Below are positions 12,223-35,946 of a stretch of DNA of 64,000 nucleotides, in pieces. Position 1 is the first letter of the stretch. Every line of letters starts with the position of its first letter. A model generated the notes under the pieces. That model was not told where the DNA came from and searched no databases. It saw only the letters and a list, made by a program, of their open reading frames with translations. Both the position numbers and the translations under genes were made by a program. The DNA is from a virus: positions 248,001 through 312,000 of the IMG/VR virus record IMGVR_UViG_3300032236_000747. One strand, written 5' to 3'.

Positions 12223-12977
12223 GGACCTGGGCTGAATATAGGCCTAGCAGCCAGGCTATCGGCAGGGGGTTCTAGTATAGTCCACTCAGTGCCCAATACA
12301 GGCGTTAGGTGTATGTGGCTGCGTGGTATCCAATACTTGTCACCCTCGATCTGCATTTGATCAACAATATTACTAAACACTGAATCCAGTAAGATAAGGG
12401 CCTGCGCACCCTCGAGTATCTTTAACCAATCAAAGACATTGTCTGTTTGTAAAGTTATGTTTATGACCTGCCAATCTATGGGTATGGCGCTGAGATCAGC
12501 ATCACACTTGTAGGTGCTGCCTTCTGTGTGTACGACCACATAGTTGGGGTTGGCGACTAGTTTGTTGTAGAGGGCCTGCTCACGGGCAGGGTTACGTGTA
12601 ATACATTCAGCTAGAGTCCACTTCTTTAAAAAGGGCACACCTGCCTTTGAATACTTGAACTCATCAAAGTGCTGTATTTGAAAGAAGGGCTGCTTGCTGA
12701 GCTCGGGTACGATGTTGAGAGCCTGATACAAACAGATAATCTCGTCACATTTAAGTGCTTTTAATCTTTTCATGGGCTCAGCGTAGAAAAACTGTCCCTG
12801 ATTGTCTTCTGGAATAGGGATCCACTGTACCCAGGGTGCTGTTTCTTTGACAGAGCCCCAAAAGGCTTCACACACGGGCCATACAACAGTATGCCCTTGA
12901 TCTACATATGCTTTGGCTATGGGTAGAGTGATAACAATATCACCTAGCCCTCTTGATTGTATAATACCTATTTTCAT
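12219..12977 (-). CDS. Glycosyltransferase family 9-like protein, 252 aa
   Basis: Starting at the ATG at 12977, the N-terminus reads MKIGIIQSRGLGDIVITLPI. This is the GDxxxxxP loop typical of ADP-heptose:LPS heptosyltransferase-like (GT9) Rossmann folds. The C-terminal region (EGAQALILLDSVFSNIVDQM) corresponds to the nucleotide-sugar-binding half, where GT9 enzymes have a D-S-x-x-x-H type motif. The usual His is absent, so activity is uncertain. A longer frame from 13010 overlaps the upstream gene and is less likely. It is in an operon with Dam and the nuclease-like gene. Confidence 0.65.
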   Translation of the reverse strand: MKIGIIQSRGLGDIVITLPIAKAYVDQGHTVVWPVCEAFWGSVKETAPWVQWIPIPEDNQGQFFYAEPMKRLKALKCDEIICLYQALNIVPELSKQPFFQIQHFDEFKYSKAGVPFLKKWTLAECITRNPAREQALYNKLVANPNYVVVHTEGSTYKCDADLSAIPIDWQVINITLQTDNVFDWLKILEGAQALILLDSVFSNIVDQMQIEGDKYWIPRSHIHLTPVLGTEWTILEPPADSLAARPIFSPGP

Positions 12978-12981
12978 ATTT

Positions 12982-13932
12982 TTAGTTATCGAAGTCAAAT
13001 AGCTGCTCAACTAATGTTGGCGGAGGTAAGGCCACGGCCGCTGCGGGTATCGTGGCACTGTGTAAGAGTATTTCTTCTGCTGCCTTGGCTGTGTGTGTGG
13101 CTACGTTGTTTTCATCTACGCCTCGGGCACGCCTACCTGCTGTGTAGGTGATTGGGTATTTCTTTAACAACAGTTGCCCTTGATTACTGGTATAGAAGTT
13201 ATCGCCGGCTTCTCGGTTACAGTAGAACACAATATCGCCTGCTAGGTCTTGTTGTTTACAAAAGTTTATCAGTGTTAGATGATCGGCGTCTGTGAACGTT
13301 TGCCCATAGCTAGTAAAGCTGTCTCTATAGGGTGGGTCAAAGAACCAAAAGGTCTTGCCCTGAGTGTGCGGAACAACATTGCTCCAGTTGCCACAATAGA
13401 TATCTACCTGCTGTAGGAATGCATTCCACTCTATGACATTGTCCTTGTCATAGACCTTGGAGGTTTGATTTAACAGTCCGCTGGGGGTAGCAAAGCGTCC
13501 ATTACTGGTTTTATTGGTTTGCCAAATACCGTTGAAGCCCGTTTTCATCAAGAAGTAGAGGCTAGCACTTTCATCAGTGGCTGACCACTGTGTCCAGTTA
13601 GTGGTGTACTCTGTGCGCAGAGTATAGTAGAATGCCTTGCGATCTACCTTAGACAAGGGCAAGTATTGCGCAGTCAGCTGATCCATACGTGCCATAAAGG
13701 CCAAGTGATCTGTTTTGATTGCTGTGTAGATACCCACAATCTCTGCGTTGATATCATTGAGCACAAACTTTGTTACACTTGGACAGTGGTCTTTGACCCA
13801 GCACATCATTGCGCCACCCCCAAAGAATGGCTCAGCAAATGTATCGTATTGAGTCGTGGGTATTCCGGGATCCGCAATATACTTGGGGATCATCTTGTTC
13901 TTGCCGCCTGCCCATATATACAATGGCTTCAT
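12982..13932 (-). CDS. Dam-type DNA adenine-N6 methylase (D12 class), 316 aa
   Basis: All main motifs are present: WAGGKNK at 7-13 (motif X), AEPFFGGG at 33-40 (SAM-binding motif I) and DPPY at 199-202 (catalytic motif IV). A TGFNGIWQTN segment at 131-140 is typical of the family. The length is a little above E. coli Dam (278 residues) owing to a Pro/Ala-rich tail (ATIPAAAVALPPPT). It probably methylates phage DNA to escape host restriction. It shares a 4-base overlap with the upstream gene. Confidence 0.93.
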   Translation of the reverse strand: MKPLYIWAGGKNKMIPKYIADPGIPTTQYDTFAEPFFGGGAMMCWVKDHCPSVTKFVLNDINAEIVGIYTAIKTDHLAFMARMDQLTAQYLPLSKVDRKAFYYTLRTEYTTNWTQWSATDESASLYFLMKTGFNGIWQTNKTSNGRFATPSGLLNQTSKVYDKDNVIEWNAFLQQVDIYCGNWSNVVPHTQGKTFWFFDPPYRDSFTSYGQTFTDADHLTLINFCKQQDLAGDIVFYCNREAGDNFYTSNQGQLLLKKYPITYTAGRRARGVDENNVATHTAKAAEEILLHSATIPAAAVALPPPTLVEQLFDFDN

Positions 13933-14801
13933 ATTGTTATATTAACATATCCGTCTGTGATAGCCTGTGTATCTCCAGATCTTTCTGACTTCCAACTAAA
14001 CTTCAGTGATGTAAAGATAGATAGATCAGTGATATCTGCGATATTGGCTATGAGTTTCTTGTCTTGATCAATGATGATTAGACTGTTCCAACTATCAATG
14101 TCCTTGTACCAACCTAGTACTCTATGTCCGATGATGTTGTTAAAATCGTTGCCATCTTTGGCGTTAACTAGTTCAGCACACATTGCGTCAATGTCGTGCC
14201 CCGGGTATAGTTTACCGAAATATTCTTTGTAGATAGCCAAAGGATCGGGCTTAGTTTTAATCCAATCCTGATGGCCGCTGAACTTGGTAACGGGTCCTGC
14301 CCTGTTGCCTTCAAAAACTGTTCTATTAAGCTCGTCTTGTACACGAATGGCTTCTGCCAAAGGTTTAAGACTAGCGCCGTTGTTCTTTAGTTCACGGATG
14401 CCTCCGGCAACTCTACCATCACCCTTGCCATCTGTGCGTTCAAAGGTCCAGCCTTGGATAACCATGGCCAAATACAGCTCGCCTACGCCTAGACCCTTGC
14501 CCTTGAACTCTACTAGAGTGGGCATGAGTCTTTGCCAAGTCTTGTTATTCTTTAATGCTAGGGGATAAAGCTCTTCAAAGTTTAACATGAAGTTAGTGTT
14601 AAACTTAGCGCCTCCTACTAGCTGTGCGTCATCCATTAAAATATCTAGCATTTCGAACCCGTCACCTTCATGTGTGTGGGCTAACCAAGCGTGTGCTAGG
14701 AAATGCTTACAAAATGCTGTTAGTCCAATCTTCTTGGACGGCATCATTTTTCTTTTTGTTAACAGTTGGTTTACTTTCTTTTCGAAGTCGTTGATCGACA
14801 T
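13929..14801 (-). CDS. Putative PD-(D/E)xK-like nuclease, Dam-linked, 290 aa
   Basis: The central region reads GKGLGVGELYLAMVIQGW, then GDGRVAGGIRELKNNGASLK, with E108, G127-D128 and E137-L-K139. The order GE ... GD ... (V/I)xxELKxxGAxL recalls phage proteins related to restriction-endonuclease-like folds that bind DNA through an E...D...ExK site. Placement directly upstream of Dam would fit a restriction-modification-like pair or a DNA repair nuclease. The assignment is by motif order only. It is first in the operon from the promoter at 14822-14850. Confidence 0.5.
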   Translation of the reverse strand: MSINDFEKKVNQLLTKRKMMPSKKIGLTAFCKHFLAHAWLAHTHEGDGFEMLDILMDDAQLVGGAKFNTNFMLNFEELYPLALKNNKTWQRLMPTLVEFKGKGLGVGELYLAMVIQGWTFERTDGKGDGRVAGGIRELKNNGASLKPLAEAIRVQDELNRTVFEGNRAGPVTKFSGHQDWIKTKPDPLAIYKEYFGKLYPGHDIDAMCAELVNAKDGNDFNNIIGHRVLGWYKDIDSWNSLIIIDQDKKLIANIADITDLSIFTSLKFSWKSERSGDTQAITDGYVNITI

Positions 14802-17577: not shown

Positions 17578-18039
17578 ATGATAACCTTAGAGGAATTCCA
17601 CTCTTTTATTGAAAACGATATAGTATATCTCCAGAACTTACTATACTACATTGATGCTCAAGGGCAAGAGCATAAAATCAACAACCTGGGTCATCTTCAT
17701 TCCTTGTACGGGAATACCATAAAACTAGAAGGTGCCGAGAAATACAATAAAGCTCTCTTTGACTATTGTCAATCTTTCAAACACTCGGGTCCAGTAACTT
17801 GCCACATCTTTAGATCCTTCGCAGGCTCACATAGTTTTCCAACCCATGTAGATCCAGATGATGTACACCTTAGGTTGCTATATGGACAGAAAACTATTAT
17901 ACTAGAAGATACAGAACATATTTTGAATCCCAACGACTGCTTATACATACCTGCCAATACTCCCCATCGTGCAATAAACAACGAAGAGTCTTTGATGTTA
18001 AGCATAGGACTTGAAAAGTTTCTTATTGATAAACTATGA
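17578..18039 (+). CDS. Cupin/JmjC-like Fe(II) oxygenase candidate, 153 aa
   Basis: The HxD...H metal triad of cupin-fold 2-oxoglutarate oxygenases is visible as H90-V-D92 and H130 in IPANTPHRA. Further family marks are DVHLRLLYGQKTIIL (95-109) and NPNDCLYIP (117-125). At 153 residues it is a minimal double-stranded beta-helix domain. It begins the modification cluster and overlaps the first radical SAM gene by ATGA, so the two are probably coupled. Hydroxylation of a peptide or protein side chain is the likely reaction; the substrate is unknown. Confidence 0.65.
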   Translation: MITLEEFHSFIENDIVYLQNLLYYIDAQGQEHKINNLGHLHSLYGNTIKLEGAEKYNKALFDYCQSFKHSGPVTCHIFRSFAGSHSFPTHVDPDDVHLRLLYGQKTIILEDTEHILNPNDCLYIPANTPHRAINNEESLMLSIGLEKFLIDKL

Positions 18040-19094
18040 ATTGGCTTTTCTATTTAAAAACTACAGAGACCTGTAATCTCAACTGTAAACATTGTTTCAC
18101 CAATGGAACCAGCGGAGCAAAGATCTATTGGAACAAAGAAAAAGTCAGTAAGTGGTTAAAGGATTTTAGAGAAGAAGTTGGTCCTGGGCATTCAGCTCAC
18201 TGTGAGTTTCATGGGGGAGAGCCATTCCTTGTTGATGTAGAAGAAATGAAACAAGTATACGATGAATGTAAAGACCTTTGGAATAATATGTCATGGGGTG
18301 TAACAACTAATCTCGTATTCAAACTATCTCCTTCTATCATAGAGTTTATTAAAGGGCCCTTAGACAATAGATTAGCTACGAGTTGGGATCCTGATATTAG
18401 ATTTGCTAATCCTAAACAGTATGACCTTTGGAGGAACAATGTTAGGACATTGATAAACGAAGGAGTTACTCTTAAATTGTTTGTCAGTGTTACAAAAGGC
18501 ACAGTTAAAATGAACCCCATTGATCTCTTAGAGTGGATTAGAGACCTGGGAGTGAAAGAAGTAAGTTTTGAGAGATTAACGCACAACGGTAGCGCAAACA
18601 AAAACCCTGATATATTTCCCAGCAACGTAGAACAAGATGCTTGGTTCCTTAGAATGCATCAACAGAGCGAACAGGCAAACGCTAGAACTTGGTTTAATAA
18701 CGAGTTTCTAGAAAATGTTTATACAAAGTTTGAATCCGGATTTAACAAAGCAGGAACTTTCTGCAGGGACTGTGAGGAAAAACTCTTTACGTTAAACGCA
18801 GATGGTTCTATTGCCGGATGCCCAAACAGTGCTCCGGAACAGTATTTCGGACATATAGATACTAGAATACACGATCTACTCAAAGACCCTGCTAGAATAA
18901 ACAACATAGCCTGTGAAAGATCTAGAGATCCTAGGTGTTATTCCTGTGATGTTTTTGAGTTTTGTGGAGGAGACTGCCATCAGTTATCCTGGGAAGACGA
19001 TCAGTGTGGTGCACCTAGAAGCTTGATGCAGTTGTTAGCAGGTATAAATACTCTAAGAAGTCAAAAGATCTTTAAAATAGAGGAAATTAAATGA
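18036..19094 (+). CDS. Radical SAM enzyme with SPASM domain (1 of 5), 352 aa
   Basis: The CxxxCxxC cluster motif is C13-NLN-C17-KH-C20. EFHGGEP at about residue 57 is the SAM-binding GGE motif. A C-terminal Cys-rich SPASM region (about 243-324: C243, C246, then GCPNS, CYSCDVFEFCGGDC and C324) should hold auxiliary [4Fe-4S] clusters. SPASM enzymes typically modify ribosomally made peptides (thioether, C-C links, epimerisation). It lies directly upstream of the CHxS-tail protein with a 4-base overlap, making that protein the prime substrate candidate. Confidence 0.9.
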   Translation: MNWLFYLKTTETCNLNCKHCFTNGTSGAKIYWNKEKVSKWLKDFREEVGPGHSAHCEFHGGEPFLVDVEEMKQVYDECKDLWNNMSWGVTTNLVFKLSPSIIEFIKGPLDNRLATSWDPDIRFANPKQYDLWRNNVRTLINEGVTLKLFVSVTKGTVKMNPIDLLEWIRDLGVKEVSFERLTHNGSANKNPDIFPSNVEQDAWFLRMHQQSEQANARTWFNNEFLENVYTKFESGFNKAGTFCRDCEEKLFTLNADGSIAGCPNSAPEQYFGHIDTRIHDLLKDPARINNIACERSRDPRCYSCDVFEFCGGDCHQLSWEDDQCGAPRSLMQLLAGINTLRSQKIFKIEEIK

Positions 19095-19750
19095 CAACGT
19101 TAAATAATCCGGTCACCTCCCAAAATATTGTTGATAGATTCTACGATTACGTAAACTATACAGCTAGTCAAGGAGTCACTTGGGGTAGTGATGTTATTCC
19201 AGCGGGCGATACTAGCCCAGTGAGCGGAGTTGCTGCATCAGTACCTATTATAGCCAGCACGGATTTTGCAGGGACAGTGGCCGCGGTTACTGATATTGCT
19301 ATTAACGGAGCAAGTATTGGATCATCCGGTGGTACTATTACAGCCTCTGACATTTGGTCGGTGCTGGTAAATGAAACAAGCAGAGAAACACATATTAGAT
19401 ATGTTCAAGCAATTTGCGGAGTAACGGGCACTGGTGGAAATGCTGGTACAAGATTGAGAAACACAACCACTAACAGTGATCCTAATCGTGTTCAAGACGT
19501 ATATAATCTTACAAGGGTAGCTAATATGAGGGCAGGTTTTGCAAGTGGCATAACCAATCCAGCTGCTTCAACCTACTCATTAACCGCTGGAAGTACTATT
19601 AGTTCAACTAACCTTGAATCTTTTTTCAGTGCTTGTCGAGACGCTTATAATAACGCTGCTAGAGCCACTGGATCAGCATATGTATATCGTACTAATGTAT
19701 GCCACGCTAGTTGCCACTCTAGTTGTCATAGTTCAAGAGGAAGAAGATGA
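19091..19750 (+). CDS. CHxS-tail protein, candidate substrate of the radical SAM enzymes, 219 aa
   Basis: Residues 1-200 look like a folded Thr/Ala/Gly/Asn-rich domain (MTTLNNPVTSQNIVDRFYDY at the start), like many phage virion proteins. The last 16 residues are CHASCHSSCHSSRGRR: three C-H-x-S units (C204, C208, C212) and a basic end. The only other Cys are C109 and C182. The HxS pattern recalls the His-Xaa-Ser substrates of radical SAM maturases, here with Cys added. Coupled ATGA overlaps join it to the SPASM enzyme and to the next gene. A metal-binding tail without modification is the main alternative. Confidence 0.75.
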   Translation: MTTLNNPVTSQNIVDRFYDYVNYTASQGVTWGSDVIPAGDTSPVSGVAASVPIIASTDFAGTVAAVTDIAINGASIGSSGGTITASDIWSVLVNETSRETHIRYVQAICGVTGTGGNAGTRLRNTTTNSDPNRVQDVYNLTRVANMRAGFASGITNPAASTYSLTAGSTISSTNLESFFSACRDAYNNAARATGSAYVYRTNVCHASCHSSCHSSRGRR

Positions 19751-20436
19751 ACATCATCGAAACAACAGCACCTATTTCTATAGATAATTTAAAGAAGTAT
19801 TTTGAAGATAAAGAAACTGTCTTTTTAATCGATTATGATAACTCTAATCTTAAAGAAGAAAAACTATTAACTTATCTTAGCAATCTAGAAATACCCTGCG
19901 ACCTAAACATAACAGACAATGATTATCTCTTACCGTTGATAACCTGTTATTTAAAATCTCCACATATGGTAGAAATCCCGTTTCTTGAAAGAATAACAAT
20001 TATTCTTCTCTTGCAACATAAAGGCATTTTAGAAAAACAAGATCTTACTATGTTAGAGTCTTTTAAAGAACTATTAGATCTATGGTGTGAAAGATTAGAT
20101 TCTCTAACATTATATAACTTATATTGTGTTAATGAAGACAATGATTATTTTAAAAACTGGGTATTAGAAACCGGTATAAAGGATGACACAACTGATATGT
20201 CAGGTTGTAACTTTGTTAATCTTTTAAAATATGAAGATTTCTATCGATTCTATCAAAAGAGCAGTTCGACTCCTAAATATTTTCCCTACTACTTTGACGA
20301 GTATGTATTCAAAGGGAAAAACTTATACAGTTATTGGGCCAACAATAACAACCCTATGTTTCTTTTAACATTTGGAATAGCTTCCGGTGTATTTGAACAA
20401 TTCAAGGAAAATTTAAATGCTACACCTATTCAATAA
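19747..20436 (+). CDS. Unknown protein of the modification cluster, 229 aa
   Basis: Overlaps the CHxS-tail gene by ATGA. It is acidic and largely helical (ISIDNLKKYFEDKETVFLID, then TLYNLYCVNEDNDYFKNWVL) with few conserved-looking motifs. I recognise no family. The position suggests a partner of the substrate protein, such as a peptide-recognition or carrier protein, but nothing in the sequence proves it. No known leader-binding (RRE-type) fold could be confirmed by eye. Confidence 0.6.
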   Translation: MNIIETTAPISIDNLKKYFEDKETVFLIDYDNSNLKEEKLLTYLSNLEIPCDLNITDNDYLLPLITCYLKSPHMVEIPFLERITIILLLQHKGILEKQDLTMLESFKELLDLWCERLDSLTLYNLYCVNEDNDYFKNWVLETGIKDDTTDMSGCNFVNLLKYEDFYRFYQKSSSTPKYFPYYFDEYVFKGKNLYSYWANNNNPMFLLTFGIASGVFEQFKENLNATPIQ

Positions 20437-21520
20437 AGTCTATCTTGCTAGTGATTATACACTATGGAATATTCATGCTGACAAAATATTAATAATATCA
20501 GATCATTATGCCACTGAAGATACAAAAGGATATCAAGGATCTACCTATGTAGGTAAAAGTTTATCAGATGCTTTTGGAGAGAAAACACTGCATGATGTTT
20601 TATCAGAGTTTGCCGCAGGCACTGATAAAGTTATTATCTATGCCGATAACATAAGTTTTGCTGAAATCGCTGCTTCGTGGTTTAAGTCGATTACGCACAT
20701 GGATCAAACAGCCTACGATACATTTGTTGACTGTTATATCTATAAAAGGTCTGTTACTGGGCAAGATGTTGGTCAACTATCTGTTTTAATGAAACAACAG
20801 TTAGAGTCAGCACCGGCATATGATTTTTCTAATATAGCAGTTGATATGCCCTATGAGTTTTTATTAGCATCTGCTTTGGTCAATAGAGACTTTTCTAAGA
20901 AATCTCAGTTTTTAAAAACACAAGCTAAGTTTGTTAAGAGATCATATGAACACCTTATTCTAGAAGCACGCAGGCATTTGGACAACTATATATTAGATGC
21001 TAATTTACAAACAGCTCTAGGGGGCTCTGGTAAAACAATACAAAACTACAAAGAACTACCAAGCCTAGCTGCTTATAAAGAACCTTATTTTAAAGAAGCT
21101 GTTCCTGGGCCAGTAGTTCATAGCTATATTCCCGGACAAGGATCTAAGATCGATATTAGCCAAGGGTCTGATAGCGATATTGATGACCTATGCAGGGTTA
21201 CAAATATCATAAACGTTTCTATAGCAGGTATGACTATTTCAACAGGGCCCAATGGACCGGTTGTTTCTTCTAGTCCATATACAAACAACCTAAGAGCCGA
21301 TGATGGTAATGGTTGGAAATATCTAGCAGCAGCTAGAAGAGGCGAGCTAACCTCTGAAGAGTCTGATGCATTGTTAACTGAGTTCTTAGAACCTAGAGTG
21401 GCATTTGAGTTAGTCCCATTGGATCTATCACAAACTATTGTCATGGTACTACTCCCTTATTTTAAATCTCTTGCTAATAGCGGAAACACTACTGAGCTCA
21501 CTAAGTTTACACTAAAATAA
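20417..21520 (+). CDS. Unknown cluster protein, paralogue A, 367 aa
   Basis: The N-terminus MLHLFNKVYLASDY, with TDKVIIYADNISFAEIAASWF near 69-89, matches the 26608-27714 protein (MMIHLFNQVYLSYDN and NKVVIYASRDSFLEILVLWF) at equivalent positions. A first domain of about 120 residues is therefore shared, and the remainder diverges. No catalytic motif is seen. Each paralogue sits directly upstream of a radical SAM gene, suggesting a dedicated partner or substrate-presenting role. AAGGAAA precedes the ATG inside the previous gene. Confidence 0.65.
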   Translation: MLHLFNKVYLASDYTLWNIHADKILIISDHYATEDTKGYQGSTYVGKSLSDAFGEKTLHDVLSEFAAGTDKVIIYADNISFAEIAASWFKSITHMDQTAYDTFVDCYIYKRSVTGQDVGQLSVLMKQQLESAPAYDFSNIAVDMPYEFLLASALVNRDFSKKSQFLKTQAKFVKRSYEHLILEARRHLDNYILDANLQTALGGSGKTIQNYKELPSLAAYKEPYFKEAVPGPVVHSYIPGQGSKIDISQGSDSDIDDLCRVTNIINVSIAGMTISTGPNGPVVSSSPYTNNLRADDGNGWKYLAAARRGELTSEESDALLTEFLEPRVAFELVPLDLSQTIVMVLLPYFKSLANSGNTTELTKFTLK

Positions 21521-21521
21521 T

Positions 21522-22550
21522 ATGTCCTTGTATGATGTAATAGACAGGAAGGTCATAGACTATGCTGAGATTGTTGTCTGTTTATTTGATCATTGTAATC
21601 TACGCTGTGCTTTTTGTCCACAACATCACGATGATTTATTAGGTGCCTCTAGGGATGAAATATTAGCCAAGGTTCCGGGCATTGTTAACTGGATTAATAA
21701 TAATACTAGATCAAAGTATTTTAAAATTCATATAATGGGCGGCGAAGTATTTGAAGATATCTTCATAGAACAAGGCTTTATTGAAATCTATCAGGATTTT
21801 ATAGATCAAATAAAAAATAGTGTTCCAAAAGAAAAACACGTTGAAATAAACTTTATAACAAACTTAGTTTTTCAAAAACATCAAACAGTTTTAGATTTTC
21901 TTAATATCAATAACCTAAAAGTTTCAACATCTTACGATCCTCGTGGTCGATTTACTGCTCAACAGTTTGAAACATTTAAAAATAACATAGAGATATTTAA
22001 AGACTATATTAGTATGTTTTCTGTAGTAACTACTAGACAAAACATTGAAGCAGTTATAAAAGGCGATAGTTATTTTGATTATCTATATCAAAACTTTGTT
22101 TGTGATTGGGATTCATTTATACCAGCAATAGCAGAAACAGCCGAAGCAATGATGCCTAGTGAACAAGAGTTATTAAACTTTTATAAACATCTCGTTGACC
22201 ATTATCCGGACTGTATTAATATAGAGTATTTTACTGGTAATGAAAAAGAAAATCACATGAGCTGCACAAGGGGAAACAGTTATACTATTCTAAGAGATGG
22301 TTCTATGCCCGGTGGATGCAGTGGTGCGGTGTTTCTTAAAGATGCTGAAACAAAAAACTTAGAATCAACTATCATATTACATAAGTTTTTTGATACCTAT
22401 GATTGTTTCTCGTGTGAGTATTTTAAGAAATGTCCTTTTACCTGTTTTATAAAAAATGACTACAAAAAAATTAAACGAGATCTCGGAAGCTGTGTTTTTA
22501 AAGAAACCTTTCGATACGTCGATTCAAAACATAAAAGTATCATTCATTAA
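21522..22550 (+). CDS. Radical SAM enzyme with SPASM-like C-terminus (2 of 5), 342 aa
   Basis: The cluster motif is C25-NLR-C29-AF-C32. HIMGGEV near 71 is the GGE motif. The C-terminal Cys set (CTRGNSYTILRDGSMPGGCS, then CFSCEYFKKCPFTC and a last Cys) fits a SPASM/twitch auxiliary-cluster domain. It follows paralogue A by one base. The next gene (B12-type enzyme) overlaps it by 95 bases, which is unusually long. Confidence 0.88.
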   Translation: MSLYDVIDRKVIDYAEIVVCLFDHCNLRCAFCPQHHDDLLGASRDEILAKVPGIVNWINNNTRSKYFKIHIMGGEVFEDIFIEQGFIEIYQDFIDQIKNSVPKEKHVEINFITNLVFQKHQTVLDFLNINNLKVSTSYDPRGRFTAQQFETFKNNIEIFKDYISMFSVVTTRQNIEAVIKGDSYFDYLYQNFVCDWDSFIPAIAETAEAMMPSEQELLNFYKHLVDHYPDCINIEYFTGNEKENHMSCTRGNSYTILRDGSMPGGCSGAVFLKDAETKNLESTIILHKFFDTYDCFSCEYFKKCPFTCFIKNDYKKIKRDLGSCVFKETFRYVDSKHKSIIH

Positions 22551-24255
22551 TCCACCTCACGCCGATTGGTGTTTGGCAAACAATGCTGCTTACTTAATGT
22601 TTCAATCGCATTACAGCAGACACGGCAAAAATAATAAAAAGGTAGAGTGGATACCGGCTCCTTATCGATTTGATCAGTATGAAAATGTTCAACAAATATT
22701 AAACGAAGTTGGGAAAGCTGATGTGTATCTATTTTCTAGTTACATATGGAACTATGATGTATGTGATAGTCTCGCCAGACTAATCAAAGATACCTATCCT
22801 ACAAGCATCTGCGTATTAGGTGGCCCGCAAATAGGAACTAACGAACCAAAGTTCTTAACATCTCGTTCTATGTATGATTATATACTGCGACCAACCAAAC
22901 CCGGTGAAGTATTTGTACAAGAACTTATTGATTCGTATTTCGATAACTTAGGATATCCTGATGTAGAAGATATTTCCTGGGAACTACGTAGCGATAAAAA
23001 ATGCGATCAGTTTATGCCAGATTATAGTGTGTACGAAGAACATATAGAATATCTAACCAATGCTAGAGAACATGCTCGTGAAAATGATCTAGAACCATTT
23101 TGTATTATTGAAACAACTCGAGGATGTCCTTATGCGTGTACCTATTGCGAATGGGGCGGAGGAATAGACAGTAAAATCTATAAGAAGCCTATTGATGTAG
23201 TAAAGCGTGATTTATTAGCATTAAAGAAAGCAGGCTATCGAGATGTTTACCTGACAGATGCTAACTTCGGAGCATTTAAAGATAGGGACTTAGAAATATT
23301 TAAGTTTGCGTGGGACAATGAAATAAATCTAACTGACATCAGTACTATGAAAAGCAAGGATTTGAAAAGAAGAACAGATCTAGTCGATGCATGGTTTAGC
23401 GTTGTAGGATCCGGGCCAGAAAAACACAGCCCTGTTATAACAGGAAGAGAAGGCGGACAAGCTCTTGTTGCCGGACTAGGTGAAATGTCAGCTTTATCAA
23501 ACGATGTTTCTTATATTAGTATTGTACCAACAGTATCTATTCAAAGTATCAGCGATGAAGCTATGAAAGTAGCTAAACGTGCTGACCTATCCTTTCAAGA
23601 TAAAATAAAACTCAGCGAGCATATAAACAATCAGTGCCACAAAGAAGGATATCCTGTTCCTGCTATTGAGTTAATAATGGGAATGCCAGGCAGTACTATT
23701 GATGATTTCTATGCTGAATGGGAAATAATGTGGAACTTCAAAGCATGGACTAGTTATCGACACGATTATATGTTCTTGCCTGACTCCGAGTTAACTAATC
23801 CAGAATATTTAAAAAAGTATGATATTACTCTAGTAGAAGTTTACAGTGATCTAGTAGACGAGTTTGGTATTGATAATCAAAATAGTCTTTATAAAAATAA
23901 ACGTAGTTATTTTAAAACTATATCGTCTTGCTTCTCTTATACATTCGACGAAATGTGTGAAATGTGGTTCATGAATCTAGCTGAGAACAGACTATTAGAA
24001 AAAATATATCCAATGTTTGAAAATGATATTTTACCGAGCGAGTTTGGAAAAATGTGTTATCGAATATTATCTCAAACAGATGAGTTTGCTGTTATCCATA
24101 AACAAATACAAGACCTACTAGATCCAAATACATCTCCAAAAAATATCAAAAGATTGAATGGTAAACTAAGAAACTTTGCTATTGATGACCTCACTGATAA
24201 GTACAGAACTATCATTGTTTCTCAAATATACAAGGAGATGTTATGCATCAACTAA
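22456..24255 (+). CDS. B12-binding-domain radical SAM enzyme (3 of 5), 599 aa
   Basis: Residues about 25-160 look like a Rossmann B12-binding domain (IKVSFINPPHADW, YLFSSYIWNYD, ICVLGGPQIG). The radical SAM motif is C224-PYA-C228-TY-C231 preceded by IIETTRG, typical of class B methylase-like enzymes. The usual DxHxxG cobalamin-ligand motif is not visible. Such enzymes methylate unactivated carbons or rearrange side chains. The start is uncertain: a GTG near 22491 would shorten the 95-base overlap. Confidence 0.85.
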   Translation: MTTKKLNEISEAVFLKKPFDTSIQNIKVSFINPPHADWCLANNAAYLMFQSHYSRHGKNNKKVEWIPAPYRFDQYENVQQILNEVGKADVYLFSSYIWNYDVCDSLARLIKDTYPTSICVLGGPQIGTNEPKFLTSRSMYDYILRPTKPGEVFVQELIDSYFDNLGYPDVEDISWELRSDKKCDQFMPDYSVYEEHIEYLTNAREHARENDLEPFCIIETTRGCPYACTYCEWGGGIDSKIYKKPIDVVKRDLLALKKAGYRDVYLTDANFGAFKDRDLEIFKFAWDNEINLTDISTMKSKDLKRRTDLVDAWFSVVGSGPEKHSPVITGREGGQALVAGLGEMSALSNDVSYISIVPTVSIQSISDEAMKVAKRADLSFQDKIKLSEHINNQCHKEGYPVPAIELIMGMPGSTIDDFYAEWEIMWNFKAWTSYRHDYMFLPDSELTNPEYLKKYDITLVEVYSDLVDEFGIDNQNSLYKNKRSYFKTISSCFSYTFDEMCEMWFMNLAENRLLEKIYPMFENDILPSEFGKMCYRILSQTDEFAVIHKQIQDLLDPNTSPKNIKRLNGKLRNFAIDDLTDKYRTIIVSQIYKEMLCIN

Positions 24256-24749
24256 AAGAAAACATTTACAAATACGGATATCATCAACTATTTGAACCTA
24301 GTGCCCTTGATTTAATAAAAGCAGACGAGTTTCGTTTACTCAATGTAGAAGAGCGCAGTAGAGATAATATGATAAAAGATGTACCAACAGAGTTATCAAA
24401 TAGATTAACTACAGTTGCTCATTATTTTAAAACCAAATATATAGATCCTGTATGGGAGAACTCTAGATACAATAAATTTACTATCTGGGAAGGTGTTGAT
24501 CGTGACAACCAAGGATGGCATACTGATTTCTTTGAAGGTTATGATTTATTCTTTCTCTACTACCTTGATGACACATTTGAAGAATCTGGAGGGTATATTG
24601 AGTTTAAATGGGACAGCGGCGAAAAACGTTATCAACCAAAAGCAGGAGATCTGTTTTTAGTTAACAACCTACGTGGCTTCTGGCATCGTGCTGGCAGTTC
24701 TACTATATCTCGTCGTGTAGCAAGTTTTGATTTTAACGCAGGTATCTAA
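24243..24749 (+). CDS. 2-oxoglutarate/Fe(II) oxygenase, prolyl-hydroxylase type, 168 aa
   Basis: The metal triad is H93-T-D95 and H148, with the 2-oxoglutarate-binding Arg in SRRVASFDF (R157 or R158). LFFLYYLDDTFEESGGYIEF and PKAGDLFLVNN give the typical strand order of P4H-like domains. The gene overlaps the B12-type enzyme by 13 bases. A peptide or protein side chain in this cluster, or the collagen-like fibre at 52279, are possible substrates. Confidence 0.85.
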   Translation: MHQLKENIYKYGYHQLFEPSALDLIKADEFRLLNVEERSRDNMIKDVPTELSNRLTTVAHYFKTKYIDPVWENSRYNKFTIWEGVDRDNQGWHTDFFEGYDLFFLYYLDDTFEESGGYIEFKWDSGEKRYQPKAGDLFLVNNLRGFWHRAGSSTISRRVASFDFNAGI

Positions 24750-24750
24750 A

Positions 24751-25056
24751 ATGCAACAAGTTATTAATGATCTATTAGAAAAGAAGAAAATCCTAGGAGA
24801 TGAAAGAGACCTATGCGCTGAAGTTTATAATGTGTGGATTACTAGGATGTACGAGTGCCAGGACGATCCTGTTAAGTATGAAATGTATATAAACATGATA
24901 CAGGTTATGGAACCATATGGCCAAATGGTTAAAGAGGAAATAAGAGAAATAAATCGTCAGCTTTGTGAAATAGAAGGTGTAGATTCTATAGACGAAACTC
25001 CTTATCTTAGAGAATGCAACAACAAGTATGGAAACGCAAAACCAAACGATATCTGA
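24751..25056 (+). CDS. Small helical cluster protein, 101 aa
   Basis: ATG at 24751, one base after the oxygenase stop; an upstream in-frame start within the oxygenase was rejected. The N-terminal helices (MQQVINDLLEKKKILGDERD, then MVKEEIREINRQLCEIEGVD) look coiled coil. The C-terminus (ECNNKYGNAKPNDI) is polar with one Cys. It could be a scaffold or a small precursor. No family is recognised. Confidence 0.55.
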   Translation: MQQVINDLLEKKKILGDERDLCAEVYNVWITRMYECQDDPVKYEMYINMIQVMEPYGQMVKEEIREINRQLCEIEGVDSIDETPYLRECNNKYGNAKPNDI

Positions 25057-25552
25057 TATTGGCAACGATTTTCTTATTAATGGATTTGCTACCGGTCTAG
25101 TTCCTCTTGATTTATTAACTCCGTTTAATAACACATATTTTCCTGATTGTAATATAGACTGTGATTATGTGTTTCCGGAAGAAGTTATAAATTTATTAAC
25201 ACCTGTGTGCGATTGGTTAAAAATAAACTATCTAGAAACATTGTTTGCTGACTATAGAGTACATTACATAGGAGCATGGAGTGGAGTCGATGAAGGCTCA
25301 GCAAGATGGCACAACGACTGGATTGATGGCGACCCATTTAATACAAACATTCTTGTATATCTAGATCCTCCATTAGAAAACTATATAGCAGTTAGAAATA
25401 TACTTGATCCGGACAGCGAAACTAAGATATATCCAGAAGTTGGGCAGTTTGTTTGGATCAATCAACAAAAACACATACAACACAAAGCACAACATACTGC
25501 TGGCCCTAGAAGATTATTGTGCTTTGAATTCTTCGTACCTAACCTAACCTAA
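25028..25552 (+). CDS. 2-oxoglutarate/Fe(II) oxygenase-like protein, 174 aa
   Basis: The HxD is H95-N-D97 in SARWHNDWIDGDPF. The distal His is H152 or H156 (QHKAQH), followed by GPRR with R161 or R162 as the likely 2-oxoglutarate ligand and CFEF as the last strand. NILVYLDPP and VGQFVWIN correspond to core strands. It overlaps the preceding small gene by 29 bases. It is the third oxygenase-type protein of the cluster. Confidence 0.75.
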   Translation: METQNQTISDIGNDFLINGFATGLVPLDLLTPFNNTYFPDCNIDCDYVFPEEVINLLTPVCDWLKINYLETLFADYRVHYIGAWSGVDEGSARWHNDWIDGDPFNTNILVYLDPPLENYIAVRNILDPDSETKIYPEVGQFVWINQQKHIQHKAQHTAGPRRLLCFEFFVPNLT

Positions 25553-25556
25553 CAAA

Positions 25557-26648
25557 ATGGATCTTATCATTAAACCTACAGAAGTATGTAACTTCAAATG
25601 TACATTTTGTTCATCTACAAAAATCAGTGAAGAACATAGTTCAACACTAGACTTAGATTACGTGTTTAAGTTTCTAAAAAGATTTCCGGAAACTAATACA
25701 ATAATAGTCAATGGTGGAGATCCATTGATGATGCCTGTTAACTATTATTGGGAGATTATTAACTGGCTAGATCAACACAACTACGATCACACTACTCTTA
25801 GTCTTACAACTAATCTTTGGCCATTTTATAAAAATCCAGATAAATGGATTGAGCTATTCAAACATCCAAGGGTTGGCGTTAGTACATCGTTCCAATATGG
25901 TAACGGCCGTCTTAAAGGCAACTATGAAGTCTTTACAGAAGATGACTTTTGGGCAGCATCGAATATGATGCTAGATAAAATAGGTTATCGACCTACCTTC
26001 ATTGCTGTTATCACAGAAGAAAACGAAGACAGCATTATTAAAACAGTAGAGCTTGCTAAGAAGATGGATGTTGTTTGTAAAGTAAATTACGGAATGGCAT
26101 CCGGAGACCAGTCAACTCCATATATGTTATCAAAGATATATAAGGCCTATATAGATATATGGAAGGCGGGACTTTATCCCTGGGAACATAATACGCAGCA
26201 GATGATGACTCGATTAAAAGGAACAGCGACAATCTGCCCACAGGCCCGAAACTGTGATTCGCATATAAGAACACTTCAACCAGAAGGAGATTACTATTCC
26301 TGCGGTGCATTCGGCGACGACAAGGAAAAACCTATTAACTTTGAAGAAGAAATGAGTGGTAAGTTTTTTACACCGTTGTCTGATGACTTTGACATTGCTA
26401 CAATGAAACAATCCTGTTATACTTGTGCTATGTTTGAAATCTGTAATGGTTGCAGAAAAACCGTTAAAGATCAAAAGAGACACGGAATGGTAGAAGAACA
26501 TTGTAAGATGATGAAGTCTCTCGCTCCTGATATAATAACAGCCAATGGAGTTGTTAGGGAAGTTACCCCTTATGTTAAAGAAAGCAATCAAAGAATAATA
26601 AGGATAGTTGATGATACATTTGTTCAACCAAGTTTACCTATCTTATGA
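25557..26648 (+). CDS. Radical SAM enzyme with SPASM domain (4 of 5), 363 aa
   Basis: The cluster motif is C11-NFK-C15-TF-C18. VNGGDPL near 51 replaces the usual GGEP, a common variant. The C-terminal Cys set (ATICPQARNCD, then EGDYYSCGAFGD, CYTCAMFEICNGCRKT and EEHC) fits a full SPASM domain with two auxiliary clusters. The order HxD-oxygenase then SPASM enzyme repeats the arrangement at the start of the cluster. Confidence 0.9.
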   Translation: MDLIIKPTEVCNFKCTFCSSTKISEEHSSTLDLDYVFKFLKRFPETNTIIVNGGDPLMMPVNYYWEIINWLDQHNYDHTTLSLTTNLWPFYKNPDKWIELFKHPRVGVSTSFQYGNGRLKGNYEVFTEDDFWAASNMMLDKIGYRPTFIAVITEENEDSIIKTVELAKKMDVVCKVNYGMASGDQSTPYMLSKIYKAYIDIWKAGLYPWEHNTQQMMTRLKGTATICPQARNCDSHIRTLQPEGDYYSCGAFGDDKEKPINFEEEMSGKFFTPLSDDFDIATMKQSCYTCAMFEICNGCRKTVKDQKRHGMVEEHCKMMKSLAPDIITANGVVREVTPYVKESNQRIIRIVDDTFVQPSLPIL

Positions 26649-27714
26649 TAATATCATAGATGAAAACATTGATAGAGTAGTAATATCAGAAGAGTTTGGT
26701 AAACATATGTTGCAGTATGCCGCTAGGCCTTCCCACGGGGCATTGTTGTATGCTGGCATGGATATTAATGACCTAGCAACAAATGGTATTAGTGATTTCT
26801 TTAACAACCTAGCAACGCATAAAAATAAAGTTGTTATCTATGCTAGTAGAGATTCGTTCTTAGAAATATTAGTGTTATGGTTTACTTCTCTATTAAAACA
26901 TGCCGACAAAGATACAGTACAAACATTGTGTAAGGCTTTGATCTTTAGGATAGTTGTGTTTTCAAATGGAAGATTTATCACACGCAGCGATAAAAACAAA
27001 ACTGAATATTCGCCGCAATACTACGAGTTCCCACAGGCCGACTTTGATTCATACTATAAGCTAGCACTTGAGTCTAACTTAGATCTAGCACCATTTCTAA
27101 ATAACATAGGTGTTGAGTATATGCTAGCAACATATCTTTACAGCGGTCATTATAAAGAAGAACTTAAATCTTTATTAAAACCCTTGATAAGAAAAGATAT
27201 GATAAAATATCTCTACGAGCTCAAAGAGATATTTCTTGTACATTTAATGACTCCTGCCTTTACAAATAAGATGTCATTAACTAAAGATTATGATTTTAAT
27301 ACATTTACTGATATTATAAATGATGATTCTAGATTTGCTAAAACATTCATGTCTACTCAAATATGGGAAACTCCTTTTATGTCAGCATATGGAAACCATG
27401 ATATCTTTTTAGAAAATATAACTCCAGAAGATATTCAAGTGTTTAAAGACTTTACTCATATTGCTGGAAACACATGGATAGAAGAAAGTGTTTATATATT
27501 TGTTAAATCAGATATTAATAAACTAGACTTTCTAGCTTGTTTTTTAGATTTTACAGATGATCTACTCGATAAGATTATAGAGGCTGAATCAACATTTGAG
27601 CACTCAGCTGGATCTTTCTTTTCTATAGACGTGACTACTGTTAATCATTATCTTGTACAAGGTCTTTTAAAAAATAGAAACAATAAAGAATATCTAAGAT
27701 TGTATTCAATATGA
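26608..27714 (+). CDS. Unknown cluster protein, paralogue B, 368 aa
   Basis: Paralogue of the 20417-21520 protein, with the same length (368 versus 367) and N-terminal pattern HLFNxVYLxxD ... KVxIYAxxxSFxEIxxxWF. It overlaps the SPASM gene upstream by 41 bases and the radical SAM gene downstream by ATGA. The conserved length and position suggest a radical SAM partner. No motif pointing to an enzyme is visible. Confidence 0.65.
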   Translation: MMIHLFNQVYLSYDNIIDENIDRVVISEEFGKHMLQYAARPSHGALLYAGMDINDLATNGISDFFNNLATHKNKVVIYASRDSFLEILVLWFTSLLKHADKDTVQTLCKALIFRIVVFSNGRFITRSDKNKTEYSPQYYEFPQADFDSYYKLALESNLDLAPFLNNIGVEYMLATYLYSGHYKEELKSLLKPLIRKDMIKYLYELKEIFLVHLMTPAFTNKMSLTKDYDFNTFTDIINDDSRFAKTFMSTQIWETPFMSAYGNHDIFLENITPEDIQVFKDFTHIAGNTWIEESVYIFVKSDINKLDFLACFLDFTDDLLDKIIEAESTFEHSAGSFFSIDVTTVNHYLVQGLLKNRNNKEYLRLYSI

Positions 27715-28643
27715 ACATTTCTATTAACCCTTGGTACTACTGTAACTTTCGCTGCGATTTTTGTTATCTAACCACGCAACAGTTATCAGATAAGCAGTTA
27801 CTAGATCTCGATGTACTAGAAACACGTCTAAGAGAAATACCCTCTCCTATTGATCAGGTAGATCTATACGGGGGTGAGATAGGTCTTCTTCCTAAAGAGT
27901 ATTTTCAAAGACTCAAAGAAATCTGTAAAAGATACACTGATAAAATAAACATTATTACAAACTTATCTACAGTAAACAGCATTACCACAGATGAAGATTG
28001 CTATATATCAGTTAGCTATGATTTTGACTGTAGGGAAAATCACGAAATAGTTTTTAAAAATATGATGCTATTAGAAAGACCATTTTCTATTTTAATGCTA
28101 GCTGGAGATAAACTAATAGAGAAAGATGTTAGCCATATGATTAATATGTTTAATCTTATAGGAAACTTGGAATCAGTTGAGATTAAACCTTACAGTAGCA
28201 ACCAAGCTAATCAACAAACGGTTACTTTTAAACAGTTTGAAGATTTTATAATAAAATGGATTGATAGCCCTATTAAGAAAAACTTTTCTTTTATAAACGA
28301 GTTCCTAATAGAAGATGTATTAGATAAAACTAGAAACAGTTTTTCCGATGATCACATTTACATAACTCCTAGTGGTAGATATGCTGTTTTAGAATTTGAT
28401 TTAAATGACAATGAGTTCTTTCTTGAATATGATACATTTCAGGACTACCTAAACTGGTGTTCGATTGAAAAGAAACGAACACACAAGAACTCCTATTGTA
28501 ATCAATGCGAGTATAACGGTCATTGTCTATCTGAACACCTGAGAGATGTCAAAGATCTAAATAATAGTTGTAACGGATTTAAACATCTGATAGATTGGTA
28601 TAAGAATGAAAGACTGGAAGATTCGACAAGAAGTTTATCATAA
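27711..28643 (+). CDS. Radical SAM enzyme with short Cys-rich tail (5 of 5), 310 aa
   Basis: The cluster motif is C11-NFR-C15-DF-C18. DLYGGEIGLLP near 51-61 is the GGE motif. The C-terminal Cys (YCNQCEYNGHC, then SCNGF) could hold one auxiliary cluster, like a twitch domain. It is smaller than the SPASM members. It overlaps paralogue B by 4 bases and the next small gene by 38. Confidence 0.85.
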   Translation: MNISINPWYYCNFRCDFCYLTTQQLSDKQLLDLDVLETRLREIPSPIDQVDLYGGEIGLLPKEYFQRLKEICKRYTDKINIITNLSTVNSITTDEDCYISVSYDFDCRENHEIVFKNMMLLERPFSILMLAGDKLIEKDVSHMINMFNLIGNLESVEIKPYSSNQANQQTVTFKQFEDFIIKWIDSPIKKNFSFINEFLIEDVLDKTRNSFSDDHIYITPSGRYAVLEFDLNDNEFFLEYDTFQDYLNWCSIEKKRTHKNSYCNQCEYNGHCLSEHLRDVKDLNNSCNGFKHLIDWYKNERLEDSTRSLS

Positions 28644-29010
28644 ACTAAATCGTTCACACACGGATGATTTAAACTCAGTTGATATAATAAACACTACCGA
28701 AACAGTAAAAGATGCTGTAAGATATTTTCACGAAACAAACATTGGATGGATATATCCTTCAAAGAGTTATATGGTTGCTATATGTTATGCTAGATGGCTA
28801 GGCGAAAACTTCGGCGGTGATCCTTACGAATATCTAAATGATCCTGATTTGCTTTATGGAAACGATCCTTATTTTATTCCCTATAGAGAATCAAAAAAAG
28901 AATACGATCAAATTTTGATTGATATTAATGGTTGGCAGTTTTCCGAAACTTCAGGTATGGTGCCCGATGTTAAACAATATTTCCTAGAGGAGTTCATGAT
29001 AGATGTATGA
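28606..29010 (+). CDS. Unknown cluster protein, 134 aa
   Basis: Begins MKDWKIRQEVYHKLNRSHTD and contains ETNIGWIYPSKSYMVAICYA, then LGENFGGDPYEYLNDPDLLY. The aromatic and acidic soluble protein has no family I recognise. It overlaps both neighbours (38 and 8 bases), so it is part of the same translation-coupled string. Confidence 0.6.
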   Translation: MKDWKIRQEVYHKLNRSHTDDLNSVDIINTTETVKDAVRYFHETNIGWIYPSKSYMVAICYARWLGENFGGDPYEYLNDPDLLYGNDPYFIPYRESKKEYDQILIDINGWQFSETSGMVPDVKQYFLEEFMIDV

Positions 29011-29629
29011 TGATTTACACAGCCCTTCGGGCAAGGGCAATAGCTGGGGCACTGGCAATAAACTAACCAACGGAGTTAACTTACTGTGGCCTAATCAAGT
29101 TCTATCCGGTAATATAGAAGAAAAGGATTTGTTAGATAAGTTTTCTCAAACTATATTCGAATCTGTAGATTTTTCATCTAATAGATTTTCGGAGTTTGAT
29201 CCGTTAATAGAAGGTCCAGAGATTTGTCAAGAGTTTAAAAATAAAGTTGTTGTGCCCTGCTTTGAAAAGTATCTTAACAACATGGGGCTAAATCTACAAT
29301 CCTTTGGAAACTATAGACTTAAATCTTGGATAACCGGATCAAAAGAAGGATACTCAATATCAGCACACAATCATAGCGGTGCTAGTTTAAGTGCTGTGTT
29401 TTATCTTTTAGTAGGGAATAGAGTAACCGGAGGGGACCTTGTAATAATAGACCCTAGGACCAATGCTAACCGAGGATACCTAGATGCATTTAAACCATTT
29501 TTTGAAAATAAGGTCTTTACACCGCAGTCTGGGGAATATATAATCATACCCGGATATCTTTATCATCATACTACTACATTTTATGGATCACTGAGGCTTG
29601 CTATGCCGGTAGATTTGTTTTTGAGTTAA
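29003..29629 (+). CDS. 2-oxoglutarate/Fe(II) oxygenase-like protein, 208 aa
   Basis: AHNHSGASLSAVFYLL (121-136) is the H-x-H/G-x-x-LS-x-V-F/Y-YL motif of a phage-abundant oxygenase group annotated as putative 2OG-Fe(II) oxygenase. GGDLVIIDPR (143-152), PQSGEYIIIPGYLYHHT (174-190, distal His) and GSLRLAM (195-201, R198) complete the pattern. It is the last gene of the cluster and meets the convergent IscA gene with a 4-base overlap. Confidence 0.8.
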   Translation: MYDDLHSPSGKGNSWGTGNKLTNGVNLLWPNQVLSGNIEEKDLLDKFSQTIFESVDFSSNRFSEFDPLIEGPEICQEFKNKVVVPCFEKYLNNMGLNLQSFGNYRLKSWITGSKEGYSISAHNHSGASLSAVFYLLVGNRVTGGDLVIIDPRTNANRGYLDAFKPFFENKVFTPQSGEYIIIPGYLYHHTTTFYGSLRLAMPVDLFLS

Positions 29630-29955
29630 ACTCTAAAACTTTCGCCGCAGCCACAACGGTCGCGTTCATTAGGATTTCTAAACTCAAACCCTTCATTTAA
29701 TCCATTTCGAACATAATCTACAGTTGTTCCTAAAATATATGGAAGGTGTCTGGTGTAAATCTTGATTATGAAATCCGGATAGATAATGCGCTCTTCACTA
29801 GGGTCAAAGGAATCTGGATAGTTTAACCATTCTAAAGTATAAGCTAAACCACTACACCCTGTAGTTTTAACTCCTATCCTAAGTCCTACACTAGCTCCTC
29901 GTTTTATTTTCAACTGTTTAATCTTGTCTAGGGCTTGCTCTGTTAGTGTGATCAT
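29626..29955 (-). CDS. iscA: A-type Fe-S carrier protein (IscA/HesB family), 109 aa
   Basis: The three invariant Cys are C34 (TTGCSGLAYTLEW), C101 and C103 (DRCGCGESF). The length is normal for IscA (about 107). It receives and delivers [2Fe-2S] or [4Fe-4S] clusters. It is the only leftward gene in this part and shares its stop region with the last oxygenase gene. The spacing KRGASVGLRIGVKTTGCSGL is like IscA rather than ErpA. Confidence 0.9.
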   Translation of the reverse strand: MITLTEQALDKIKQLKIKRGASVGLRIGVKTTGCSGLAYTLEWLNYPDSFDPSEERIIYPDFIIKIYTRHLPYILGTTVDYVRNGLNEGFEFRNPNERDRCGCGESFRV

Positions 29956-29993: not shown

Positions 29994-30287
29994 ATGAAAA
30001 AGATCCTTCTAACATTTATCATAGCATTAGCGGCAGTACCTGCAATGGCGCAGTGGCATCATCATCATTGCTGTTATCGAGGCGGATGGGTTGGTCCTGC
30101 CCTCATAGGTGGTGTAGTCGGATATGAGTTATCTCGCCCTCGTACAGTAGTTGTTGAACAACCTATTATTGTACAACAACCACAACAACCTATTATTGTA
30201 CCTAGCGCCGCCCCTGCTGGATATCATTGGCAACAAATGATCAATCCACAAACAAATCAATATCAACTAGTACTGGTACCTAACTAA
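29994..30287 (+). CDS. Secreted His/Cys-rich small protein, 97 aa
   Basis: MKKILLTFIIALAAVPAMA is a clear Sec signal peptide with an AMA cleavage site. The mature protein would start QWHHHHCCYRGGW, a likely metal-binding cluster. A Gly-rich segment and a Pro/Gln/Val tail follow (VEQPIIVQQPQQPIIVP, then YQLVLVP). This layout is close to small bacterial periplasmic proteins of unknown role (Gly-zipper plus QP repeats) and may have been acquired from a host. Confidence 0.7.
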   Translation: MKKILLTFIIALAAVPAMAQWHHHHCCYRGGWVGPALIGGVVGYELSRPRTVVVEQPIIVQQPQQPIIVPSAAPAGYHWQQMINPQTNQYQLVLVPN

Positions 30288-30288
30288 T

Positions 30289-30420
30289 ATGAAACTACGT
30301 AAACTAAGAAAAAAGATGTACAAGGCTATATTCAATCATGATGTAGCAAAAGAAAGAAAAACTTGGCTCAAGATTCTTAAAAAATCTATGAAGCACAAAC
30401 ACACCGCAGACGTTCAATAA
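30289..30420 (+). CDS. Small basic protein, 43 aa
   Basis: ATG at 30289 immediately after the secreted protein stop. It reads MKLRKLRKKMYKAIFNHDVA and ends KHKHTADVQ: strongly basic and helical. The stop overlaps the IscU start (TAATG). No family is recognised. It might bind nucleic acid or couple IscU translation. Confidence 0.55.
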   Translation: MKLRKLRKKMYKAIFNHDVAKERKTWLKILKKSMKHKHTADVQ

Positions 30421-35943: not shown

Positions 35944-35946
35944 TTT

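Follow-up and report, generated by a model that had tools for sequence, protein, structure and literature searches.

A Cys-His repeat tail linked to a radical SAM cassette in jumbo phages, Pseudomonas megaplasmids and Bdellovibrionota

The cassette and its tailed protein

The window analysed here is a 64,000-nucleotide stretch of viral DNA, bases 248001-312000 of a 354,680-bp virus record. From 17578 to about 29629 it holds a gene cassette whose core members follow the order cupin, rSAM1, tail gene, phrog_20767 protein, rSAM2, rSAM3 and rSAM4 (Table 1). The tail gene encodes a protein of 219 aa, which we call the carrier; its C-terminal end reads YRTNVCHASCHSSCHSSRGRR before the stop codon, and the last 16 residues (CHASCHSSCHSSRGRR) form the tail. 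The original prediction, made from the letters of the window, held that this gene is translationally coupled to that of a SPASM enzyme, and a 4-nt overlap (ATGA) between rSAM1 and the carrier gene at 19091 bears this out. Further 4-nt ATGA overlaps join the cupin gene to rSAM1 at 18036, and the carrier gene to the next gene at 19747.

rSAM1 has a CX3CX2C cluster motif near its N terminus, in which C13, C17 and C20 are invariant among 20 homologues, and a SPASM domain that scores over the cut-off (TIGR04085, 32.2 bits versus 27). The Cys pattern of the SPASM domain is also kept in the 20 homologues, with C246-G257-C262, C301-C304-C310 and C324 invariant and C314 nearly so. When 28 loci spanning the cassette were compared, the cupin, rSAM1, phrog_20767, rSAM2 and rSAM4 genes were present in every one, the 134-aa protein in 21 and u367 in 19. 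rSAM3 was assigned in at least 22 of the 28, a lower bound that reflects overlap in the HMM assignment of families. The B12-dependent radical SAM enzyme and the 2OG oxygenases vary among cassettes. A second group of phages (class II, see below) has the same core cassette, with paired carriers some kilobases away.

IscU was considered as an obligate partner and rejected: it is optional for the cassette, because it was present in only 8 of the 49 tail-bearing records tested, none of them cultured. Between two of the Fe-S genes of the window lies a 97-aa, secreted-looking protein (29994-30287) with WHHHHCCYRGG after a putative signal peptide. Downstream of the cassette, at 34366-37191, are two long Gly/Ser/Thr-rich ORFs resembling tail-fibre or adhesin proteins.

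Table 1. Features of the cassette and of the adjoining Fe-S genes in the window.
Feature	Position	Strand	Basis or remark
Small cupin/JmjC-like protein, core member	17578-18039	+	Profile matches, locus survey
rSAM1, radical SAM/SPASM enzyme, constant tail partner	18036-19094	+	Profile matches, alignment, locus survey
Tail carrier, 219 aa; body predicted alpha/beta, pLDDT 83, pTM 0.81	19091-19750	+	ORF, alignment, structure prediction
C-terminal tail CHASCHSSCHSSRGRR, three CHxS units + RGRR	19700-19747	+	ORF translation, pattern counts, alignment
phrog_20767 protein, core member	19747-20436	+	Directly downstream of 137/164 single carriers
u367, frequent cassette member	20417-21520	+	Locus survey
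rSAM2, radical SAM enzyme, core member	21522-22550	+	Profile matches, locus survey
B12-binding radical SAM enzyme, variable member	22456-24255	+	Start codon uncertain; overlaps rSAM2
2OG-Fe(II) oxygenase-like, variable member	24243-24749	+	Profile match, locus survey
Oxygenase-like, variable member	25028-25552	+	Same family as 24243-24749 by HMM
rSAM3, radical SAM enzyme, core member	25557-26648	+	Weak SPASM match
Second u367-like protein	26608-27714	+	Locus survey
rSAM4, radical SAM enzyme, core member	27711-28643	+	Profile matches, locus survey
134-aa protein	28606-29010	+	In most complete cassettes, chromosomal included; class II homologue is phrog_20737
2OG-Fe(II) oxygenase	29003-29629	+	PF13759
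A-type Fe-S carrier, IscA/SufA-like, possible Fe-S supply	29626-29955	-	PF01521
IscU-like Fe-S scaffold, possible Fe-S supply	30420-30803	+	PF01592
Second A-type Fe-S carrier	31549-31881	+	PF01521

Conservation of the tail and its linkage to rSAM1

The unusual Cys-His-rich ending that had drawn attention to this gene is real and widespread. A DNA pattern for CHx[ST]CHx[ST]CHxSRG, which demanded neither the stop codon nor the last two Arg, matched at least 119 viral stretches in IMG/VR, and in each matched ORF the motif opens a 16-residue C-terminal end that closes with RGRR. (Counts from the IMG/VR scans are lower bounds, and most records are fragments.) Because so many stretches share the ending, always at the same distance from the stop, a chance origin of the tail is excluded. 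Within the window CHxSCH occurs twice, both times in the tail, where 0.07 occurrences were expected and no shuffle reached 2; as the end of a real ORF it occurs once in the whole virus record. The carrier body is free of any pattern resembling the tail, as had been stated. The tail strings are not printed in any of the papers searched.

Among 178 distinct complete carriers, the three Cys, the three His, the first Ser and the three Arg of the tail show no variation. The second and third Ser are replaced by Asn or Ala in some, Gly is replaced by Ser in some, and a plasmid version of the tail has Ala instead of Ser. Ser being replaceable, the real signature is Cys-His together with the C-terminal RxRR. 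Other Cys are absent from 133 of the 178 carriers. The tail is encoded by 163 different DNA versions in this set, and its invariant first Ser uses codons of both the AGY (119) and TCN (59) families; this diversity of coding shows that selection acts on the tail at the level of protein rather than DNA. On one viral contig, adjacent and dissimilar large carriers (L054:11753-12682 and 12685-13467) both end in the tail.

Carrier lengths range from 124 to 319 aa, and the bodies share almost nothing. In the larger carrier class, 76 aligned members have a mean identity of 18%, and the invariant columns are confined to the tail; the alignment of homologues that had been proposed thus leaves the tail as the only conserved part of the carrier. 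The second class (class II) consists of tandem pairs of about 130 aa each. Profile comparison of the two classes (hhalign) gave a probability of 99.2% with the tail, which fell to 4.7% once the tail was removed, so the classes match only through the tail. PHROG 35144 matches the last 55 residues of the window carrier, for which neither Pfam nor NCBIfam gave a match. No match was found by tblastn with the whole carrier or its last 27 residues against 50,697 phage records. A search for related loci with the carrier as query was also empty because the bodies diverge, a problem that the tail DNA patterns overcame.

In structure comparisons, neither carrier body had a useful match in the PDB. For the window carrier the best Foldseek E was 2.5 and the best VIA Z 2.2 (8.4 Å over 74 residues); a weak class II model (pTM 0.57) reached a VIA Z of at best 2.1 (5.6 Å over 84 residues). 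These empty searches argue neither for a new fold nor for a known one. Structure matches in BFVD were mainly to uncharacterised phage proteins and included the carrier of Agrobacterium phage Atu_ph07 (E 4.4e-5).

The tail and the SPASM gene, whose co-occurrence had been put forward as a check, are linked in both directions. For 153 of 164 single carriers, the closest cassette gene upstream is rSAM1, and 8 more carriers lie at a contig edge. In the reverse direction, 80 loci were fetched by rSAM1 alone and the tail was found in all 76 that were testable; in the other four the contig ends before the next gene is complete. Tails kept in the absence of radical SAM genes would speak against the linkage, and they were looked for in 47 tail-bearing records, mostly chosen because the fetched stretch showed the tail but no adjacent rSAM1. 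rSAM1 was present in 38, the other nine being fragments of 5.6-38.7 kb, and each searched tail-bearing record of at least 40 kb encodes rSAM1; the prediction survives this comparison. Among the 50,697 phage records, rSAM1, rSAM2, rSAM3 and the phrog_20767 protein each match the same seven. We regard the functional linkage of tail and rSAM1 as close to proven. A fixed partner gene shows that the two are functionally linked, which does not by itself make the tail the substrate.

Tailed proteins of phages, plasmids and predatory bacteria

The cassette is found in six cultured jumbo phages. The seven matched records are those of Burkholderia phages FLC6, FLC8 and SURPRISE13, Agrobacterium phage Atu_ph07 (two entries), Sinorhizobium phage Phosso and Pseudomonas phage DT01. 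Five of these records were opened, and in all five a tailed protein directly follows rSAM1; the FLC6 carrier has an identical counterpart in FLC8. According to papers, Ralstonia phages RSF1 and RP31 have similar genes.

For Atu_ph07, in which the carrier is gp170 (RefSeq FDI40_gp170), rSAM1 is gp171 and the upstream cupin-family gene is gp172, the virion has been analysed by mass spectrometry. That report describes three clusters of virion proteins, CDS 170-215 among them (PMC6102473), and its numbering agrees with RefSeq at gp125, gp132, gp140, gp141, gp198, gp204, gp215 and gp227. The CDS 170-215 cluster runs from the tailed protein gp170, its first gene, to the major capsid protein, its last. 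Because the cluster starts at the tailed protein gene, gp170 was most likely detected in Atu_ph07 virions, the cluster boundary being the basis. In the class II phage G018, the two tail genes come immediately after a 2143-aa ORF that matches a tail fibre. With a gp170 that opens a virion cluster and class II genes that follow a tail-fibre ORF, the suggestion that the carrier is a virion protein is probably correct, and tailed carriers are probably present in virions.

Distant relatives of rSAM1 (about 26% identity) are encoded on Pseudomonas megaplasmids. The gene after the radical SAM cluster encodes a protein of 124-128 aa that differs from the phage carriers in having a hydrophobic N terminus and a tail of four units with mostly Ala for Ser, of the general form CHxA-CHGA-CHGA-CHGx-RGWR. 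The ends are CHSACHGACHGACHGARGWR in pQBR103, CHTACHGACHGACHGSRGWR in pQBR57 and CHNACHGACHGACHGSRGWR in Rms139. These tailed genes (pQBR103 L263:9326-9700, pQBR57 L268:8932-9306, Rms139 L267:8989-9375) come after three radical SAM genes, and just upstream in the megaplasmid clusters are genes for prepilins and for type II secretion/type IV pilus components. Relatives of the four-repeat protein occur in 129 plasmid records. Papers on pQBR/IncP-2 plasmids note the radical SAM cluster and the pilus and leave the role open; their passages on the cluster do not mention the tail (PMC13391042, PMC4989453, PMC7070040). A search of IMG/VR with the CHxA pattern returned two matches in a long low-complexity frame, which were hence rejected as tails.

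Of 240 Bdellovibrionota genomes, 13 have rSAM1, and the six genomes in which the tail was found all belong to these 13 (hypergeometric p = 7e-9). In one further genome a degenerate ending, CHSNCYTPPPKSRSRR, lies near rSAM1 and a phrog_20767 homologue (L275, minus strand, about 1140-1195); the third unit is lost and the basic end is kept as RSRR. In the Halobacteriovoraceae MAG G088, a 382-kb contig holds the cassette amid genes of an ordinary chromosome, one of which reads as rpsT; nearby is a protein that starts like a prepilin and has a Peptidase_S74 domain. The cassette of Bdellovibrionaceae UBA2316 includes extra CxxxCxxC-type ORFs (L273:9893-10906 and 13374-14474) outside the families modelled. 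Six Bdellovibrionota genomes have rSAM1 paralogues beside which no tail was found; most of these paralogues form a separate clade, and S74 fibre proteins recur next to a tail-less paralogue. Proteins that combine a prepilin-like N terminus with Peptidase_S74 were seen by radical SAM genes of the same family, a tail-less rSAM1 paralogue included, at L281:3062-4045, L283:3094-4062, L284:1-984, L269:8655-9692 and L271:9628-10920. The scan of bacterial genomes used the Ser-type pattern, and may miss Ala-type tails elsewhere; about half of its 24 matches were chance frames, and rSAM1 was absent from the three genomes with chance-frame matches that were tested. The plasmid and Bdellovibrionota cases represent a partial survey.

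The MAT fibres of Bdellovibrio recognise prey and use S74 domains (PMC10769870). These chimeric fibres, which place phage-like S74 chaperone domains on the predator surface, resemble the prepilin-S74 proteins that adjoin the cassettes; the neighbours found here differ in their prepilin-type N termini, and neither "radical SAM" nor "pilin" occurs in the text of the MAT paper (PMC10769870).

What the tail may be for

The resemblance to His-Xaa-Ser (Hxs) maturation systems that had been suggested does not extend to kinship. As in HxsA-D, His-Xaa-Ser units occur together with at least two radical SAM genes, but here the units start with Cys, the protein ends in RxRR and Ser is replaceable. The window gave 29.2 bits for HxsB (TIGR03978, cut-off 370) and at most 26.1 for HxsC (TIGR03977, cut-off 267.9), and HxsA (TIGR03979) had no match in the window carrier at E 0.01 nor in four other carriers at E 10. 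PapB, a maturase of ranthipeptides, is likewise a SPASM enzyme whose PapA CX3D substrate repeats Cys at a fixed spacing, and PapB (NF047865) is the best NCBIfam model for rSAM1, at 55.6 bits far below the cut-off of 340. In contrast to PapA, the repeat has no Asp (the residue four after Cys is Cys or Arg in 178 of 178 carriers, never Asp or Glu) and sits at the extreme C terminus of a folded protein of 124-319 aa. The CXXX-repeat family of radical SAM targets also has a Cys every fourth residue beside a radical SAM gene, but scores 22.9 bits against a cut-off of 350 (TIGR04115) and is without the invariant His and Arg of the tail. QhpD and the anaerobic sulfatase maturases are SPASM enzymes acting on large proteins instead of small peptides, as rSAM1 may; their scores are 23.9 and 41.2 bits against cut-offs of 453 and 349, and their substrates and motifs are different. 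By curated cut-offs the tail system falls outside all of these families. RiPPs typically come from a short precursor that releases a peptide; the carriers measure 124-319 aa. Judged by its sequences, it appears to work like a protein-modifying SPASM system, while membership in a named one fails.

We suggest, with a probability of roughly 60%, that rSAM1 docks on the tail of a surface-appendage protein and modifies it there. The 16-residue ending would be a portable C-terminal maturation tail and the rest of the protein an ordinary folded carrier. rSAM1, made from the gene just upstream, would dock on the tail, probably at the invariant basic end RxRR, and apply radical chemistry to the repeated Cys-His units. 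The cupin, the phrog_20767 protein and rSAM2-4 would continue or assist the modification, and the B12-dependent enzyme and oxygenases would vary it between lineages. The finished tail would then stand at the exposed end of a structure that contacts another bacterium, be it part of a phage tail or fibre, a type IV pilus encoded by a plasmid or a predator's fibre.

One SPASM enzyme is constantly paired with one short C-terminal motif on otherwise unlike bodies, which argues that the tail is what rSAM1 recognises, and we infer that rSAM1 very likely modifies it. Since Cys and His are invariant and a unit can end in Ser, Asn or Ala, we favour a Cys-based chemistry, the acceptor being perhaps the backbone carbon of the small fourth residue or a neighbouring His; a bond to the Ser side chain seems unlikely. 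That the product contains Cys-derived thioether or similar cross-links is a tentative proposal, and a role of the modified tail as a toughened or metal-binding tip comes just short of even odds. RxRR may be the docking part, because the degenerate variant keeps its basic end. Some of the four core radical SAM enzymes and the cupin may act on the body or on another protein, four such enzymes and a cupin being excessive for 16 residues.

It is also conceivable, if unlikely, that the tail is a docking tag only, which recruits the maturase complex so that the carrier body or a neighbour is modified, and is itself left unmodified or removed. RxRR equals Cys in its invariance and persists, as RSRR, in the variant without the third unit. 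Separate docking elements are usual in RiPPs, where they commonly lie apart from the modified core. However, the bodies offer no common target site, given that the classes are unmatched without the tail and that invariant columns are found in the tail only, and invariant Cys and His at a fixed four-residue period exceed what docking needs.

We give a similarly low probability to a metal-binding tip, in which a trimeric fibre joins the CHxS repeats and binds Fe or Zn while the radical enzymes serve another purpose. The invariance of Cys and His alongside a replaceable Ser and the tail-fibre or pilus gene contexts are in keeping with such a tip. Known phage tips have His-metal clusters, with HxH motifs binding metal in the T4 gp37 tip or in phage spike tips; the tail, in contrast to gp37, has its His four apart (CHxSCH) and no HxH in 178 carriers. 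Moreover, a plain metal site needs no rSAM1, yet the tail was never seen without rSAM1 in large enough records.

Still less probable is a metabolic or host-takeover module with the tailed protein as a non-structural substrate or cofactor precursor in the infected cell. Radical SAM and Fe-S genes of marine phages have been counted as auxiliary metabolic genes (PMC5332604), which agrees with such a module, but gp170 opens the published Atu_ph07 virion cluster, class II genes follow a tail-fibre gene, and the plasmid and predator copies lie by pilin genes. Read as sequence, CHxSCH holds overlapping CX3CH motifs and could let the tail bind a tetrapyrrole like c-type cytochromes, a very improbable reading given that the cassette showed no gene for cytochrome c maturation, that no signal peptide was found in the phage carriers read, and that an invariant Ser at the fourth position of the first unit has no reason in heme binding.

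Returning to a tail that rSAM1 docks on and modifies, the genomic contexts suggest the outer end of an adhesive appendage. We put forward, as a possibility somewhat below even odds, a mobile tip-finishing system in which a CHxS/A-repeat tail on unrelated carriers and a shared multi-enzyme radical SAM cassette yield a covalently cross-linked or cofactor-bearing tip on phage tails, plasmid pili and predator fibres.

Radical SAM genes have long been noted in marine T4-like phages, one of which has 12 (PMC5332604), and in the backbone of pQBR/IncP-2 megaplasmids, where their role has been called unclear (PMC7070040). The tail provides a concrete candidate substrate for radical SAM genes that lack one, and the cassette would offer a reason for the Fe-S assembly genes that lie beside it in some of these phages and for those seen earlier in marine phages (PMC5332604). 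The tail and its dedicated radical SAM set suggest that structures which make contact with other bacteria have their outer tips finished chemically, in a step not described before. Modification of the tail would probably involve a new radical SAM reaction and, if the tip-finishing reading is true, new chemistry on Cys-His repeats. That reading would also, to our knowledge, give the first virion protein modified by a radical SAM enzyme. With a modified tail, phages, plasmids and predatory bacteria would have a chemical device in common where they meet other cells.
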